NCBI GenBank assembly: GCA_024278175.1 | Contig: JAJRTS010000096.1 | Location: forward strand, 1-37,881 | Direction of reading: 5' to 3' | Source: Gemmatimonadales bacterium | GTDB lineage: Bacteria > Gemmatimonadota > Glassbacteria > GWA2-58-10 | Length of the DNA: 37,881 nt | Part shown: positions 26,762-37,540 of the stretch, piece by piece | Numbering within the stretch: position 1 is the first letter of the stretch | Layout of the letters: each line of letters starts with the position of its first letter | Translations under genes and position numbers: made by a program | Notes under the pieces: generated by a model | Databases searched by the model: none | What the model saw: the letters and a program-made list of their open reading frames with translations, nothing else | Told to the model about the DNA's origin: nothing

Positions 26762-27601
26762 TCAGTTTACCGTTATGCCGGGAGTGACCCCCAGCATTTC
26801 GAACAGCGGGGCCAGGCGGGAAGAACTGATATGGAAATCGCCGAGGTTGAGCCTTCCGCCCTCGTAATGCCAGTCGCTGCCGCCGGTAAAAATCAGCTTG
26901 TGCTGGTGCGCTTTGCCACGGATAGCGTTGGCGGTGGAGCGGTAGACGCCGGGTCTCCAGAGTTCGATACCGTGCATGCCGGCCTCGCAGAGCGGGTCTA
27001 CACACTGTTCGACTTCCTCGCGCGAGGGATGGGCCAGCGCGCTGACTCCTCCCAGCTCACCGATCAGTTGGATCACTTTCAGCGCATCGGCGGGGCTGTA
27101 GGGTACGAAAGCGCTGCCGTTGTCTCCCAGGTAGACGTCGAAAGCCTCGTCGAGCGAACGCACGTAGCCGTAGTTGTAGATCAGGTCGGCGATCAGCACC
27201 CGCCCGATTGTTTTGTGGTGCGGGACTTCCTCGAGTTCATCGTGGGGAATCCGCACGTTGCGTTCGTTAAGCCGGCTGAGGATTTCATGGGCGCGTTCCT
27301 TGCGGCGCCGGCGCACACTCTCGATATGCCGGATCAGCCGCGGTTCGGTGGGATCGAGACCATAGCCCAGAATATGCAACTCGCGCTCACCCAGCCGGGT
27401 GCTGAACTCGGTGCCGCAGATCATCGTGATACCGTTGCTGGCCGCCGAGGCCAGTGAATCCGGGTAATGGTCCACCGTGTCGTGATCGGTGATTGCCAGT
27501 ATGCTGAGCCCGCGTCGGGCGGCCAGCGGGACCAGGTCGGTCACGCTCAGCTTACCGTCGGAGTAGGTGCTGTGCAGATGAAGGTCCGCTTTCAACGCCA
27601 T
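26762..27601 (-). CDS. PHP-domain metal-dependent phosphoesterase
   Basis: A 279-residue PHP protein. The metal-binding motifs are ADLHLHSTYSDG (D6, H8, H10, D15), ITDHDT (D39, H40, D41), GTEFST (E65), SALAHPS, and GGSDWHYEG near the C-terminus. The layout matches the stand-alone YciV/RnaAM-type PHP phosphoesterases, some of which degrade 3',5'-nucleoside bisphosphates or short 5'-ended RNA; the precise substrate is inferred only. The gene starts 50 nt after lepA, with AGGAAG upstream of the ATG, so the two are probably co-transcribed. Confidence 0.87.
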   Translation of the reverse strand: MALKADLHLHSTYSDGKLSVTDLVPLAARRGLSILAITDHDTVDHYPDSLASAASNGITMICGTEFSTRLGERELHILGYGLDPTEPRLIRHIESVRRRRKERAHEILSRLNERNVRIPHDELEEVPHHKTIGRVLIADLIYNYGYVRSLDEAFDVYLGDNGSAFVPYSPADALKVIQLIGELGGVSALAHPSREEVEQCVDPLCEAGMHGIELWRPGVYRSTANAIRGKAHQHKLIFTGGSDWHYEGGRLNLGDFHISSSRLAPLFEMLGVTPGITVN

Positions 27602-29553: not shown

Positions 29554-31002
29554 TCAGAACTTGCGCCAGACTTCGGGCATAAACAGCACGATCACGGTAA
29601 AAACTTCCAGCCGGCCCAGCAGCATGCACAGCGAGAGCATCCACTTGCCAACGGAGGGCACGGCGGAGAAATTCTCCATCGGGCCCACTCCCGCCAGGCC
29701 GGGTCCGATATTACCCAAGGTTGCGGCCACACTGCTCGAGGCGGTGATCACATCGAGGCCCAGGCCGGCCATGACAAATGAGAAGAACAGGAACAGGGCG
29801 ATATAGAGGCTGAAAAAGCCCAGCACGTTGAGCATTACCTCGGGCCGCACCCTGATCCGGTTGATCTTTACCACCACCACCGCCTTGGGGTGGAGCAGTT
29901 TTTTCAGCTCGGTTTTGCCGTGCTTGAGCAGCAGCAGCAGGCGGATCATTTTCATGCCGCCGCCGGTGCTGCCCGCGCAGCCGCCGACAAACATCAGCGC
30001 CAGCAGCATCATCCTGTTCAGCGGCGCCCAGGCGTCGAAATCCGCCGTTGCGTACCCGGTGGTGGTTGTGATCGAGACCACTTGGAACACACTGTCGCGG
30101 AAATTCTGCTCGCTTGTTCCCGCGCCGTATATCCAGTTGACCAGGAACACCACGAGCGTGGCCCCGGCCAGGATACTGACATAGAACCGCCACTCGCGGT
30201 CGTGGAAATACGCGGCTGGCCCGCGGCCTGTGAGGCAGCGGTAGTGCAGGGAGAAATTGACCCCGGCCAGGAACATGAACAGGGCGATTACGTATTGGAT
30301 ATAGGCGCTCTGGTAGTGGCCCACCGAGACGTTCTTGGTGCTGAAACCGCCGGTGGCCATGGTGGTAAACGCGTGGTTGAGCGAGTCGAACAGGCTCATG
30401 CCGCCCAGGCGCAGCAGCAGGATTTCCAGTGTGGTCAGCAGCAGGTAGACTGCCCAGAGCAGCGTTGCGGTCTGGCTGATCCGGGGTTTGAGGCGGTCGG
30501 GGGTGGGGCCGGGGACCTCGGCCTTGAAAAGCTGCATGCCGCCCACGCCCAGAAAGGGCAGGATGGCGATAGAGAGCACGATAATGCCCATCCCTCCCAG
30601 CCACTGTGTCTGGCTTCGCCAGAGCAGAATCGACAGCGGCTGGCCTTCGATGTCGGTCAGGACAGAGGCGCCGGTGGTGGTAAAGCCGCTGAGCGTTTCG
30701 AAAAAGGCGTCGGTGAACGAGGGGATCGAGCCGGAGAGCATAAACGGCAGGCTGCCGAACGCAGCCGCGGCGATCCAGCCGAACGTGACGATGGCGAAAC
30801 CCTCGCGCACCCGGATATCGTCATCGCTGCGCGCCAGGGCGGCGATCACCGCTCCGCCCACGACCGAGATCGCCATCGACCACAGGATCGCCCCCAGCGC
30901 TCTCTCGTCGTAGTACCAGGCGCACCAAGCCGGCAGAGCCATCGTCAAGCCGATACAGACCTGCAGGAACCCGATCACATATAACACAAGCCTGATTTTC
31001 AT
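29554..31002 (-). CDS. trkH: TrkH-family potassium uptake channel subunit
   Basis: A 482-residue polytopic inner-membrane protein, the size of E. coli TrkH. The four selectivity-filter loops are visible: FTTTGASVL, TMATGGFST, ITTTTGYAT and TLGNIGPG, each with the conserved glycine. It conducts K+ (or Na+/K+) under control of a TrkA ring. An open frame runs upstream to 31116 into the dispersed repeat, but the family length and MKIRLVLYVIGFLQV point to ATG 31002; its ribosome binding site is poor. It is separated from trkA by 271 nt that hold repeat copy B. Confidence 0.94.
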   Translation of the reverse strand: MKIRLVLYVIGFLQVCIGLTMALPAWCAWYYDERALGAILWSMAISVVGGAVIAALARSDDDIRVREGFAIVTFGWIAAAAFGSLPFMLSGSIPSFTDAFFETLSGFTTTGASVLTDIEGQPLSILLWRSQTQWLGGMGIIVLSIAILPFLGVGGMQLFKAEVPGPTPDRLKPRISQTATLLWAVYLLLTTLEILLLRLGGMSLFDSLNHAFTTMATGGFSTKNVSVGHYQSAYIQYVIALFMFLAGVNFSLHYRCLTGRGPAAYFHDREWRFYVSILAGATLVVFLVNWIYGAGTSEQNFRDSVFQVVSITTTTGYATADFDAWAPLNRMMLLALMFVGGCAGSTGGGMKMIRLLLLLKHGKTELKKLLHPKAVVVVKINRIRVRPEVMLNVLGFFSLYIALFLFFSFVMAGLGLDVITASSSVAATLGNIGPGLAGVGPMENFSAVPSVGKWMLSLCMLLGRLEVFTVIVLFMPEVWRKF

Positions 31003-31022
31003 CTTCGGCGGTCCACGCTCTG

Positions 31023-31230
31023 GAGGGGCGTTGAAATAAAGACATCCAACGCCCTCGAATGAAAAATTTCGCTCGGGCAAGTTGTCAAGGGCAAGACAAG
31101 CCGTTCCTGTTACCAATACTGCTATCTGTGTTATACCTGGCAGTTACATTGCCCCGTCGGCTTTCGGCAAGCATAACGAGGAACGGCCCCTGACAACTCC
31201 AAGCCCATACTTTCGTTATTTTTCAACATG
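31023..31230 (+). repeat. Dispersed compound-hairpin repeat, copy B
   Basis: It starts GAGGGGCGTTG, which pairs with CAACGCCCTC (31047-31056) as a first hairpin, then GAATGAA. The left arm GTTGTCAAGGGC (31081-31092) with CCGTTCC (31101-31107) pairs with the right arm GGAACGGCCCCTGACAAC (31180-31197). The end reads GTTATTTTTCAACATG. Compared with copy A, the CCGTTTC/GAAACGG segment has changed on both sides to CCGTTCC/GGAACGG, keeping the pairing. It lies between trkA and trkH, in the opposite orientation to both. Confidence 0.87.
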
Positions 31231-31273: not shown

Positions 31274-32617
31274 TCAGAGGAAGAACTTGCTCACCTTTTT
31301 AGCCTGACGGGTGAGGGTGAACACGATTATCTTGTCGCCGGGCAGAAGATGATCGTTGCCATGGGGGATGAACGTGTGGCCTTCGCGCACGACAGCACCG
31401 AGAATACAATCCGGCGGTAACTTGAGTTCCCGCAGCATCTTGCCCACGAACGGCAGGCCCTGGCGGATGAATATCTCCATGATCTGCACGCTCATTCCGT
31501 GCAGGGTGGCCAGGGACAGCAGGCGTTCGCTGTGGGTGGCGGCCAGGATCGCGTTTACGGTCGAGAGGTGCGGGCTCACGGAGGCGTCAACCCCTATTCT
31601 GGTGGCGAGGTTAAGGTATTCCAGGCGTTTGATCTGGCAGATAGTTTTGGTGGCGCCCATGTTCTTGGCCACCAGGGAACTGATGATATTACTCTCGTCG
31701 TTTTCGGTGAGCGCCACGAACCCGTCCACTCCGTAGACGCCCTCGCTCTCAAGCAGGTCCAGGTCGGTAGCGTCGCCGTTGAGCACCAGGCTGGCGGCGA
31801 GTTTTTCGGCCAGCACGGTACAGCGGGCCCGGTCGCTCTCGAAAATGATCGGAATCACGCCCTGGGCTTCGAGCAACTGGGCCAGCCGGACCGCCACGGC
31901 GGTGCCCCCGGCCAGCATCACGCGCTGAAGGCTGCGGTTCTCATAGCCTGCCAGGCGCAGCATGTCATCGGTGGCGTCACTTTTGCCGATTACGTAAAGC
32001 AGGTCGCCCTCGAGGATCACGTCCTCACCGTGGGGGATAATGGTCTGCTCCCCACGGCTGATCGCGGCCACCAGAAACTTTCGTTTCTCGAACTCGCCGG
32101 CGATTTTTTTCAGCGGCCTGTCGCGGTACAGGAAGCCGGCGTCGACTTTCATGCCCACCAGCACCACCTCGCCATCGGCGAACTCAGCCACGTCGGTGGC
32201 GGCGGCGAATTTGAGCAGGCGCCGGATTTCCTGTGCGCAGGCTTCCTGGGGGTTAACCAGTACGTCCACGCCCAATGAGCCGGCCATCGCCAGCGGAGAC
32301 TCCCCGTAGTAGTAGTCCGCGCTCACCCGGGCCACTTTTGTCTGGACCTGGTAGCGCGAGGCGAGCTGGCAGGCCAGAATATTGACCTCGTCGTCGTCGC
32401 TGACCGCGATCAACGTGTCCGCGCGAGCCACATCGGCGTGTTCCAGGATGCGATAGTCCACCCCGCTGCCCAGCAGGGCCTGCACGTCCAGATGGTCCTC
32501 GACCCGGTCCACCTTGGCCTGGTCGGTATCGACAACAACTATTTCCTCGCCCTGTTGCGAGAGACGGTTGGCGAGCTGGAATCCCACGTCGCCGGCCCCG
32601 ACAATGATTGCTTTCAT
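31274..32617 (-). CDS. trkA: Trk system potassium uptake regulator TrkA
   Basis: A 447-residue cytoplasmic protein with two tandem RCK units, the usual TrkA layout. The first Rossmann domain has MKAIIVGAGDVGFQLANRL and the acidic VVVDTD; the first RCK_C ends before about residue 220. The second Rossmann starts VMLAGGTAVAVRLAQLL, where the glycine motif is looser, with IIFESD as its acidic end; the second RCK_C ends GDKIIVFTLT. It binds NAD(H)/ATP and gates TrkH. Its ATG overlaps the stop of the upstream NYN gene as ATGA, so it is translationally coupled to that gene. Confidence 0.95.
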   Translation of the reverse strand: MKAIIVGAGDVGFQLANRLSQQGEEIVVVDTDQAKVDRVEDHLDVQALLGSGVDYRILEHADVARADTLIAVSDDDEVNILACQLASRYQVQTKVARVSADYYYGESPLAMAGSLGVDVLVNPQEACAQEIRRLLKFAAATDVAEFADGEVVLVGMKVDAGFLYRDRPLKKIAGEFEKRKFLVAAISRGEQTIIPHGEDVILEGDLLYVIGKSDATDDMLRLAGYENRSLQRVMLAGGTAVAVRLAQLLEAQGVIPIIFESDRARCTVLAEKLAASLVLNGDATDLDLLESEGVYGVDGFVALTENDESNIISSLVAKNMGATKTICQIKRLEYLNLATRIGVDASVSPHLSTVNAILAATHSERLLSLATLHGMSVQIMEIFIRQGLPFVGKMLRELKLPPDCILGAVVREGHTFIPHGNDHLLPGDKIIVFTLTRQAKKVSKFFL

Positions 32618-33834
32618 GCTGAATGCTCTTGTTGGCTGAGCCGGTCGTTATCCGGGGGTTTTTCGCTCTCGCCGGAGGAGTAATTACCGTATTCCTTAAG
32701 CAGCATCTCGCTGCCGATCTCGTTAAACTTGTCGACTGTTTCCCGCAGTTCACTGGAGAGGTTGTGGCTGAACGCGTAAAGCTCCACCACCGGCCCCAGC
32801 CGCTTGACCAGGTGAACCAGCGAAACGAAATCGCCATCACCGCTGACCAGCGCCACCACGTCCAGCTCCCGCGCGGACTCGATAATGTCGATTGCGATCC
32901 CCATGTCCCAGTCGCCCTTGGCCGAACCATCGGTGAACGACTTGAGTTCCTTGCGGCGCACCTGGTAGCCCTTTTTCTTAAGCAGGCTGATAAAGCCGCT
33001 CTGGTCGATCTCGGGGGATTCGACAACGTAGGCCACGGCCATGATCTGGCGGCGCTTGCCGATAATCAGGTCGAGGATCGACTCGTAATCCAGCCGCGCC
33101 CCGTCGAGTTTCTTGGCGGCGTAGAACATGTTCTGTACGTCGATAAACACGCCAACCCGGATATTTTCCTCCGGGATTTCATCCAGGTGGCGGCGCAGGG
33201 ACTCGCTGCCGGACTCGCCCGGCTGAACGCCGCCCTCGATCCGGCCGAGCTGCTTGCGTAGTGATTCTATCTCCCGGGTCTGTTCTATCAGCAGACCCTT
33301 CAGCTCACGTCCCATGCCCTCGATCCTCTCTTCCAGGGCCTGAATTTTGGACATGCAAAGCGGGCGCTGGGCCAGCAGACTGCTGCCGGAGTCACGGAAA
33401 CCGCGGCTGAGCAGGGTTTCGAATTCATCCAGCAGGACGGCCTGTTTCTCATGCAGCAGTACCCAGAGCAGGATACAGGCGGTTTTGCGGTCGATTGAGC
33501 CCTCGGACTGCAGGGCCTCCAGTTGCTCGCGCAGCTTGATATCTCCAAGGCCGAGATAGTTTTTCAACCGGCCGACCAACTCCTGGTCCACTGCTCCCCA
33601 GATGCTGCCGGAGGCGCGCTGGGGGCCAATCTTCCAGGCTTCGATCAGGATTTCGATCAACTCGTGGGTGCGGGCCTGGCGCAGGTCGAATTGCTCGTCG
33701 CGTGTTGTGCAGCGATGAGCGAGCTCCACCAGCCGCTGGCGCTCGAACAGGTTTTCCAGCAGCAGCCTGAGCTGCTCATTGGACGGGAAGCAGAGTTTGT
33801 CCCGGTCGGTGTCGGTTTCGTTTCCGGTGTGCAT
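32614..33834 (-). CDS. NYN-domain (LabA/DUF88, PIN-like) putative RNase with helical N-terminus
   Basis: A 406-residue protein. Residues 1-155 form a helical domain I do not recognise, 160-200 a coiled coil (KIQALEERIEGMGRELKG), and 225-380 a NYN domain: VGVFIDVQNM (D232, N235), AKGDWDMGIAIDI (D308, D310, D316) and VALVSGDGDF (D333, D335). These are the acidic residues of PIN-like nucleases, so Mg-dependent RNA cleavage is expected; NYN proteins of the LabA type act on RNA in bacteria. The tail is disordered. ATG 33834 has a weak AAAGG upstream. The gene overlaps trkA by 4 nt, an unusual pairing that implies co-regulation with K+ uptake. Confidence 0.85.
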   Translation of the reverse strand: MHTGNETDTDRDKLCFPSNEQLRLLLENLFERQRLVELAHRCTTRDEQFDLRQARTHELIEILIEAWKIGPQRASGSIWGAVDQELVGRLKNYLGLGDIKLREQLEALQSEGSIDRKTACILLWVLLHEKQAVLLDEFETLLSRGFRDSGSSLLAQRPLCMSKIQALEERIEGMGRELKGLLIEQTREIESLRKQLGRIEGGVQPGESGSESLRRHLDEIPEENIRVGVFIDVQNMFYAAKKLDGARLDYESILDLIIGKRRQIMAVAYVVESPEIDQSGFISLLKKKGYQVRRKELKSFTDGSAKGDWDMGIAIDIIESARELDVVALVSGDGDFVSLVHLVKRLGPVVELYAFSHNLSSELRETVDKFNEIGSEMLLKEYGNYSSGESEKPPDNDRLSQQEHSA

Positions 33835-33924
33835 TTTCGGTTATGCCTTTCTTTACGTGTAAATTGAGAATGAGATTAAATACCGCGCACTAAATATACA
33901 TATAACAGGCTTTCTCATGCAAAT

Positions 33925-35185: not shown

Positions 35186-36181
35186 TCAATCCCGGCCAGG
35201 GGCCAGCAGGGTTTCCGGGCCGGCCTGGCGAACGTAGTCGATTACCCGCCGCAGGATTTCATCAAGGTCGTGGCAGGGCTTGTAGCCCGTGGCCCGGTGG
35301 ACCTTGGAAATGTCGGGAATCCGGCGAAACATGTCCTCAAATCCTTTGGCGTAGGCTTCGTCGTAAGGGATCGTCACGATTTCCGATTCGCCGCCGCTCA
35401 TCGTTCTGATCTTTTCGGCCAGGTCGGCGATAGTGATTTCCTGGTTGTTGCCCACGTTGTAAATCTGTCCCTCGGCTTCGGGGAGTTTGCTGAGGCGGAT
35501 CAGGTATTCGACCGTGTCGGCCACGTAGGTGAAACAGCGGCTCTGCCTGCCGTTGCCGTAAACCTGGATCGGTTGGCCGAGCAGCGCCTTGGCCACGAAC
35601 CGGGGGATGACCATTCCGTAGCGTCCGGTCTGCCGGGGACCCACTGTGTTGAACAGCCTGGCGATCACTACCGGCAGATTTTTTTCCTGGTGATAAGCCA
35701 GCGCCAGGAACTCGTCCACCGCCTTGGAGCAGGCGTACGACCAGCGGTTTTTGGTGGTGGGGCCCATCAGGCTGTCGTCTTCCTCGCTGAAGGGGACCTT
35801 TTCGCTTTTGCCGTAGATTTCGCTGGTGGAGGTGATCAGGGTTTTCTTTCTGTAGCGGTTGGCCACCTTGAGCACCATTTCCGAGCCGAGGATGTTGGTT
35901 TCTATCACCTCCACAGGCCGGTTGACAATCAACTCGACACCCACGGAGGCGGCCAGGTGGAAAATGATGTCGCACTCGCAGACCAGCCGGTCCATCACTG
36001 TCTCGTTGAGAATACTCTCAATGGCGAAAGTGAATTCGGGGTTGTCCACCAACTGTTCTATGTTACTCATCCGGCCGGTGGAAAGGTCATCGATCACCGT
36101 GACCTGATGACCCAGCTCCAGCAATTTTTCGCACAGGTGCGATCCAATAAATCCGGCTCCACCGGTAACAAGCGCTTTCAT
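35186..36181 (-). CDS. NAD-dependent nucleotide-sugar epimerase/dehydratase (extended SDR)
   Basis: A 331-residue extended short-chain dehydrogenase. The NAD-binding GGAGFIGSHL is at 7-16, VIDDLSTGR follows, and the catalytic site has the Ser/Thr in TSTSEIYG and the YxxxK in YACSKAVDE. FNTVGPRQTGRYGMVIPRF and GNGRQSRCFTYVADT are typical of the UDP-glucuronate decarboxylase/UDP-glucose 4-epimerase branch. It makes or converts an activated sugar for the adjacent glycosyltransferases; the exact sugar cannot be read here. GGAG lies about 9 nt before ATG 36181. It sits between the GT4 gene and the sugar-phosphate transferase. Confidence 0.9.
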   Translation of the reverse strand: MKALVTGGAGFIGSHLCEKLLELGHQVTVIDDLSTGRMSNIEQLVDNPEFTFAIESILNETVMDRLVCECDIIFHLAASVGVELIVNRPVEVIETNILGSEMVLKVANRYRKKTLITSTSEIYGKSEKVPFSEEDDSLMGPTTKNRWSYACSKAVDEFLALAYHQEKNLPVVIARLFNTVGPRQTGRYGMVIPRFVAKALLGQPIQVYGNGRQSRCFTYVADTVEYLIRLSKLPEAEGQIYNVGNNQEITIADLAEKIRTMSGGESEIVTIPYDEAYAKGFEDMFRRIPDISKVHRATGYKPCHDLDEILRRVIDYVRQAGPETLLAPGRD

Positions 36182-36340: not shown

Positions 36341-37540
36341 TCAGCCAGGATAATTTCCCGCCTTTTCTCTGGTCAGCAGGCTGCGGTAGAGTCGATCGAT
36401 ATCTTCGAGCAGCCTGTTTTTATCGAACATCGGATAAGCTTTTCGCCGTCCGGCCTTCCCCATCATCTCCCGCCGCTGGGGTTTGGCCAGCAGGTACATG
36501 ATCGCCAGGGCCAGGGCGCGGTGATCGTTGGACGGGACCAGCAGGCCGTTGTCGCCATCGAGAATAAGGTCCCGCACTCCGCCCACATCTGTACTGACAA
36601 CCGGCTTGCCGGCTGCCATTGCCTCGATCAGCGCCACAGGCAACCCTTCGTTGAACGAACTCAACGTTACGACATCAAGCCCGGAGTAGATTTTGGTTAA
36701 GTTATGCTGGAACCCCATGAAAATCACCTTGGATTCCAGGCCGAACTCCCTGGTTTTTTGCTCCAGGTGCTCACGCAACTCGCCGTCGCCGATAATCAGA
36801 AAGCAAACGTTATCCATCTTCCCGGCGATAACGCGCGTCGCCTTGAGGAAGCACAGGTGGTTCTTGATCGGAACCAGCCGGGCGACTATTCCCACCAGCA
36901 GGGTACCAGGCGCCAGGCCAAGCTCCCGCTGGAGCAACTCGGGGTCGGCGTTTGTGCGAACGAACGGCTTCAGGTCCAGACCCAGCGGAACCGAAATAAC
37001 CTTTTCCGCCTCGGCGATCTTGTAACCCACTATCTCACGCCTTTGCTGTTCGCCCACGGTAATAATGACATCGGTGAATTTAGCCATCAGCCGTTCAAGC
37101 CACAAGAAAAATTTGGTGCGTAAATAGCCGAAATAGCTGTGAAATACATGACCGTGGAAGGTGTGGATGATCACGGGCACGCCGGTCAGTTTGGCTGCCA
37201 GACGGCCGACAAAGCCCGCTTTTGCGGTGTGGGTGTGGACTATATCCGGTTTTTCGCGACGGATCATGCGGATCAGGTTAACAAGCGCCCTCAGGTCGTC
37301 GCGGATGAATATCTCCCTGCCCAGAGCGTCGATTATGATCGGGTGGACGTTTTTCTGTTCGGCGAAGTCATTCATATTCCCTTCCGCCGGAGACTCGCGC
37401 CCGGTGACAAGCTGGCTGACGTAGGTGGACGAATCCAGCTCGCTGTTGAGAATGATCACGTGCAGGGCCGGCCCGCCGATATTGAGCCGGGCGATAATCC
37501 TCAGGATCTTGTACTTGCGTTCAGTCGCGGTTTTGGCCAA
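36341..37540 (-). CDS. Glycosyltransferase family 4 (GT-B fold)
   Basis: A 399-residue glycosyltransferase adding a sugar to a lipid-linked or surface polysaccharide. The N-terminal Rossmann half has ILRIIARLNIGGPALHV and PDIVHTHTAKAGFVGRLAAKL; the C-terminal half has GIVARLVPIKNH, FLIIGDGELREHLE, and the donor-site SSFNEGLPVALIEAMAAGKPVVSTDVGG, the EX7E motif of GT4 enzymes. The start is TTG at 37540, supported by AAAGG about 8 nt upstream; no in-frame ATG is near. It begins the cluster segment visible here, 280 nt below the end of another minus-strand gene, with repeat copy C between them. Confidence 0.9.
   Translation of the reverse strand: MAKTATERKYKILRIIARLNIGGPALHVIILNSELDSSTYVSQLVTGRESPAEGNMNDFAEQKNVHPIIIDALGREIFIRDDLRALVNLIRMIRREKPDIVHTHTAKAGFVGRLAAKLTGVPVIIHTFHGHVFHSYFGYLRTKFFLWLERLMAKFTDVIITVGEQQRREIVGYKIAEAEKVISVPLGLDLKPFVRTNADPELLQRELGLAPGTLLVGIVARLVPIKNHLCFLKATRVIAGKMDNVCFLIIGDGELREHLEQKTREFGLESKVIFMGFQHNLTKIYSGLDVVTLSSFNEGLPVALIEAMAAGKPVVSTDVGGVRDLILDGDNGLLVPSNDHRALALAIMYLLAKPQRREMMGKAGRRKAYPMFDKNRLLEDIDRLYRSLLTREKAGNYPG

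Follow-up and report, generated by a model that had tools for sequence, protein, structure and literature searches.

To our knowledge, the targets of NYN proteins in bacteria are mostly unknown. Several described proteins can be compared with the one considered here. VPA0982 of Vibrio parahaemolyticus (PDB 2qip) is a LabA/DUF88-type NYN protein, and its solved chain (165 aa) is the NYN domain alone. The NYN domain of human and mouse MARF1 (6fdl, 5yaa) is a demonstrated metal-stimulated endoribonuclease with an acidic pocket needed for activity, according to the available part of PMC6294520. The available part of PMC2848206 describes bacterial proteins in which a NYN nuclease (LK-nuclease/DUF88) is combined with OST-HTH as an accessory domain, for which recruitment of RNA has been proposed.

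The stretch of DNA that we analyzed (the window) is 37,881 nucleotides long and comes from a Gemmatimonadales bacterium (contig JAJRTS010000096.1). All window features with coordinates given below are on the minus strand. The gene of interest (32614..33834) has exact ORF bounds, with an ATG start, 406 open codons and a TGA stop, and codes for a 406-aa protein. The sole Pfam domain with a score over the cut-off was PF01936 (NYN) at residues 226-371 (32722..33159), with E 1.2e-29 and 104.2 bits compared to a cut-off of 24.2. For the NCBIfam NYN family TIGR00288, the score was 13.8 bits against a cut-off of 178.45, which places the protein outside that family. VPA0982 was the only PDB sequence relative found for the nuclease domain (phmmer E 7.2e-23, 155 residues aligned). 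The modelled domain had a PIN-like fold: the Foldseek comparison with 2qip gave E 3.2e-12 with a TM-score by target of 0.85, and the comparison with the MARF1 NYN domain gave E 1.7e-5 with TM-scores by target of 0.67-0.76. In the full-length model, pLDDT was 66-89 across most of the NYN domain and fell lower around residues 281-310.

We observed that the residues D232, N235, D308, D310, D316, D333 and D335 are all present, and that each of them is kept in 81-83 of the 83 NYN proteins from other loci, a comparison made across NYN proteins. Among them, D232, D308, D310, D333 and D335 make up the predicted metal-binding set. The protein is thus a candidate NYN RNase, with a nuclease activity predicted from domain, fold and residues. 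A preliminary description of this DNA had proposed a candidate NYN/PIN-type RNase with all the expected acidic residues, and on both points it was borne out.

Two other assignments of the nuclease were considered and rejected. For a PIN/VapC-type toxin-antitoxin pair, a small antitoxin gene directly upstream is lacking, and a gene for a 401-aa glycosyltransferase family 4 protein is found there instead. For a defence system, the generic NYN model of PADLOC matched the nuclease domain alone, and the annotated neighbours included no defence cassette.

Upstream of the nuclease domain, residues 14-153 (33376..33795) were modelled by AlphaFold2 as an all-helical domain of seven helices, with a mean pLDDT of 84.4 and a pTM of 0.78. 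The 56-row alignment behind this model consisted of the six proteins of the window's Gemmatimonadota family and 50 of 61 N-termini from Poribacteria, so that the model drew on a cross-phylum alignment. A first full-length model, made with six sequences, was poor at the N-terminus and showed one long 45-residue helix at residues 157-201 (33232..33366). This helix is a probable coiled coil, as judged from the modest-confidence model and a weak SlyX-like Pfam match. The helical N-terminus and, as probable, the coiled coil of the preliminary description hold at the level of models.

Scans against Pfam, NCBIfam, PADLOC and PHROGs matched nothing credible apart from the NYN domain and the coiled coil. 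Beyond NYN, the Pfam scans of the window protein produced sub-threshold matches only, with no match to OST-HTH. The thought that the N-terminal domain might prove to have an unrelated role found no support, as none of these scans gave it a role. A RepB match (E 0.0014, 19.2 bits compared to a 30-bit cut-off), seen in one of the three family N-terminal pieces scanned, was rejected. A PDB sequence search with a six-row profile of the N-terminus returned nothing up to E 10, and comparisons with solved folds returned weak matches only (best Foldseek E 3.4; best VIA-align Z 3.4, with an rmsd of 3.6 over 81 aligned residues). Several Bcl-2-type helical bundles and one TNFR1 death domain were among the fold matches; they were too weak, and we draw nothing from them. 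The missing PDB match does not show that the fold is new.

With a probable coiled coil in the model, the protein could also be a scaffold, in which the NYN fold binds RNA without cleaving it and the coil serves to assemble a ribonucleoprotein. The available part of PMC2848206 shows no activity for VPA0982-type proteins, which agrees with such a role. Against it stands the conservation of all the acidic positions, and we consider a non-cleaving scaffold very improbable.

Full-length orthologs were found in all six genomes of the window's Gemmatimonadota family, which represent five genera; the other five proteins are 58-78% identical to that of the window. With the window protein as query, none was found in 389 other genomes of the phylum, and no more than three of these gave so much as a partial NYN match. 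With a profile built on the N-terminal 160 residues, the same six genomes were matched, together with one place in another Gemmatimonadota family (E 0.0093, with an internal stop) that was rejected as chance-level. Rejected on the same ground was a match in a Scalindua genome (E 0.0096), from a search of the genomes that carry 30 of the 79 stand-alone NYN loci introduced below. NYN proteins as such are widespread: 367 of 395 Gemmatimonadota genomes, the six included, have one of some kind, and each of the six has a single NYN match. At the 24 best-scoring NYN loci outside the family, TrkA and TrkH were absent within flanks of up to 1.5 kb. The NYN protein of other Gemmatimonadota families is a different one; 23 of these 24 loci (L206-L229) had no tblastn match to the window protein, and one had a match.

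In the six family genomes the gene lies in a block of constant order. Upstream of it are genes for a glycosyltransferase of group 1 (GT1, 36341..37540), a nucleotide-sugar epimerase/dehydratase (35186..36181) and a glycosyltransferase of family 4 (GT4, PF00953, 33925..35130); downstream are trkA (31274..32617; 447 aa, with TrkA_N and TrkA_C matches in two stretches each) and trkH (29554..31116; PF02386, 520 aa from the listed TTG start). The order GT1, epimerase, GT4, NYN, trkA, trkH was the same in 6/6 genomes. Elsewhere in the window, a PHP-domain protein gene follows lepA at 26762-27601; weak matches to the first 60-70 residues of this PHP-domain protein recur a few kb from several of the Poribacteria NYN genes.

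The NYN gene ends with GCA TGA, and the ATG of trkA starts on the last base of GCA. This makes an ATGA at 32617-32614, a four-base overlap of the NYN stop with the trkA start, as the preliminary description had read it. The survey of related genomes that it called for showed NYN-trkA adjacency kept throughout the family, and not in this genome only. A stop/start overlap was present in all six genomes and was the only invariant junction of the block. In five genomes it was ATGA with an intact trkA; in the sixth (G001) the junction reads GTGATG, with either a GTG overlapping by four bases or an ATG overlapping by one. The GT4-NYN gaps varied from 86 to 150 bp and the epimerase-GT4 gaps from 52 to 151 bp; the trkA-trkH gaps varied as well, some of the trkH starts being uncertain TTG calls. 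The C-terminal tail of the NYN protein (residues 382-406, 32617..32691) was modelled with low confidence and is divergent; the residues ahead of the stop could not be aligned between genera, and the overlap was nonetheless kept.

The constancy of the overlap amid drifting surroundings suggests that translational coupling has been selected for, with the reservation that the six genomes share descent and are not six independent events. Overlaps of four bases are common and ordinary for codirectional bacterial genes. The overlap could be a chance feature, devoid of regulatory meaning, that was passed down within a block that rearranges slowly, and the retention of the entire block from GT1 to trkH, and not of the NYN-trkA pair alone, fits such an origin. 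It is at odds with the change in length of the other junctions and with the divergence of the tail before the stop, and we regard it as unlikely, if far from negligible. As the least variable junction of the block, the overlap could, on the other hand, point to a genuine functional connection with TrkA within this Gemmatimonadota family. Our search of the open-licence literature found no paper joining NYN with TrkA, or trkA with translational coupling and potassium.

Between GT4 and the NYN gene there is a leader of 90 bp (33835-33924). It contains, in this order, a promoter-like TTTG-N21-TATATTT (33892..33923), the 11-mer TCATTCTCAAT (33863..33873) and GAAAGG. TATATTT and the 11-mer were kept in four of the six genomes (the window, L010, L011 and L012), while the rest of the leader has diverged; the 11-mer was located 26-28 nt before the start codon in these four, and TTTG was found 19-21 nt upstream of TATATTT in three genomes. 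We take the TTTG-N21-TATATTT arrangement to resemble the Bacteroidetes -33/-7 promoter. The comparison of leaders suggests that NYN-trkA has a transcription start of its own at a putative promoter. The 11-mer had 19 exact places in the six genomes compared to 2 for the backwards pattern. Only four of the 19 places are NYN leaders and the others are in mixed contexts, so no regulon is claimed.

Genome G001 has a damaged trkA beside a whole NYN gene. Its trkA (L013 10412-10837) is an in-frame remnant made of the first five codons followed by codon 309 onward; the loss of codons 6-308 sits at a short CATCATC-type repeat. A beta-helix-type gene is located between trkA and trkH, and a search of the genome found no other full-length TrkA. 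If the deletion, seen in one draft assembly, is real, then the NYN gene has been kept without a working TrkA. In the same genome, trkH (L013 12155-13622) is matched as two pieces slightly offset from each other, which suggests a frameshift.

Outside Gemmatimonadota, a related NYN domain was found at 80 contig loci. Stand-alone NYN proteins, 165-220 aa long, are encoded at 79 of them; the remaining locus, L016 from Poribacteria, codes for a protein of 525 aa. With the first 318 residues of L016, its N-domain and coil, as query, a match was found in 69 of 84 Poribacteria genomes; at the 61 loci that were read completely, L016 among them, the long NYN proteins have 515-594 aa. The hhalign comparison of the N-termini of the window's family with those of Poribacteria gave a probability of 81% with 21 sequences (score 37.2) and 76% with 61 sequences (score 35.4). 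The best score among controls was 21.2 for 100 column shuffles and 23.3 for 200, and the reversed control scored 12.1. The confident part of the match is mainly residues 18-72, and the second half of the domain aligned only under a relaxed setting. The Poribacteria HMM matched all six family proteins at 15-22 bits (within the six-sequence set). The converse search, with the six-row family model, brought only 3 of the 61 Poribacteria proteins to the inclusion threshold, and the six-row profile against a single Poribacteria sequence gave a probability of 8%, too weak to use.

A tree of NYN domains placed the six family rows and the Poribacteria rows on one side of a branch with 93/94 support, and 46 other rows on the opposite side. 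The tree was made with 13 of the 61 Poribacteria proteins and 47 of the 82 other NYN proteins; its root is for drawing only, and L008 is on a very long branch. The NYN protein of a contig labelled Maribacter (L068) falls among the Scalindua rows, probably a binning error.

The preliminary description had tied the RNase functionally to potassium uptake, and the relatives lend this no support. At 20 of 20 Poribacteria loci, read over 8-18 kb each, we found neither TrkA nor TrkH near the long NYN genes. A full-length TrkA was present elsewhere in 18 of these 20 genomes, on another contig in 14 and on the same contig at least 160 kb away in 4; this search covered 50 genomes picked from those already in the analysis. 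Near the stand-alone NYN loci, again, no trk gene was seen (0/79). An enzyme dedicated to Trk would set trk mRNA stability or respond to ionic stress. The stop/start overlap in the six family genomes is in line with such a regulator; the loci of Poribacteria, the stand-alone loci and the NYN gene left intact beside the truncated trkA of G001 all argue against it, and we find it distinctly improbable. Given that its Poribacteria cousins show no connection with K+ uptake, the enzyme is unlikely to be dedicated to potassium regulation. Judged by gene neighbourhoods, there is no evidence of a role of the NYN RNase in K+ uptake beyond one lineage.

The Poribacteria loci showed another kind of neighbour. 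On the same strand upstream of the NYN gene, a UDP-sugar dehydrogenase gene was found in 16 of 20 loci (L120-L139), a PfkB/HldE-like kinase gene in 15 and a HAD/GmhB-like phosphatase gene in 15, and the long NYN genes close a run of PfkB kinase, HAD phosphatase and UDP-sugar dehydrogenase. A Wzc-like gene and a polysaccharide-export gene were present in 8 of 20 loci each. The names HldE, GmhB and Wzc are our reading of Pfam results. At least one such glycan gene was found in 19/20 Poribacteria loci compared to 2/79 stand-alone NYN loci, a linkage noticed after the fact, with probe genes taken from the loci themselves and control loci that are from other phyla and partly short. Taken on gene content, glycan genes are a better common denominator of the two phyla than trk, in two lineages at most.

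The long NYN RNase may accordingly be a regulator of surface glycans, one that governs the transcripts of the polysaccharide cluster immediately preceding it in each of the two phyla, with trkA downstream by history. Its position directly after the GT4, epimerase and GT1 genes in all six family genomes speaks for this, as does the excess of glycan genes at the Poribacteria loci. The post hoc origin of the linkage and of its probes weakens the case; moreover, the glycan enzymes differ between the two phyla, shared descent leaves two observations at most, and the promoter-like leader may part the NYN gene from the glycan genes in the Gemmatimonadota family. A glycan regulator is, in our estimate, unlikely. 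A wider form of it would have scaffolded NYN endoribonucleases of two phyla cut surface-polysaccharide cluster transcripts by means of the helical docking domain, with one Gemmatimonadota lineage wired to TrkA by translational coupling, a link between K+/turgor control and envelope-glycan expression. This we offer as quite speculative.

The reading that we prefer, with a probability of about 0.6, is that of a scaffolded NYN endoribonuclease that is co-expressed with TrkA in one lineage and is not specific to Trk. The protein would belong to the NYN (LabA/VPA0982-type) superfamily and act as a metal-dependent endoribonuclease, with the N-terminal all-helical domain and the coiled coil most likely holding it as an oligomer or docking it to a partner. 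Its gene lies, in one Gemmatimonadota family, within a conserved block between the surface-glycan genes and trkA-trkH, and is probably transcribed from a promoter of its own within the 90-bp leader. The overlap of the NYN stop with the trkA start would let TrkA be translated by coupling (termination-reinitiation), so that TrkA and the RNase are made in a fixed ratio. The enzyme would act on RNAs other than those of Trk, with TrkA co-expressed in the Gemmatimonadota lineage.

The added helical domain and coil, together with the repeated place beside envelope-glycan genes, are a concrete lead to the targets of NYN proteins. If the coupling to TrkA matters, the locus would be an example of an RNase whose dose is set jointly with that of an ion-transport regulator; if the coupling does not matter, the locus is a warning against inferring function from a single overlap.

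Among the systems compared, the Poribacteria proteins have the same order of N-domain, coiled coil and NYN domain as the window protein, and the N-domains are related; their coil is much longer, and they have no trkA neighbour. The likeness to VPA0982 is in the sequence and fold of the nuclease domain; in the window protein a helical domain and coil, about 225 residues in all, come in addition. The likeness to MARF1 is in the fold, the MARF1 NYN domain having no match to the window protein in sequence by phmmer or profile; MARF1 also has RRM and LOTUS domains, unlike the window protein. With the bacterial NYN and OST-HTH proteins, the window protein shares the pairing of a NYN nuclease with an accessory domain. 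In those proteins, as the available part of PMC2848206 has it, the nuclease is N-terminal and the accessory OST-HTH domain is a winged helix; in the window protein, the accessory domain is N-terminal and all-helical.
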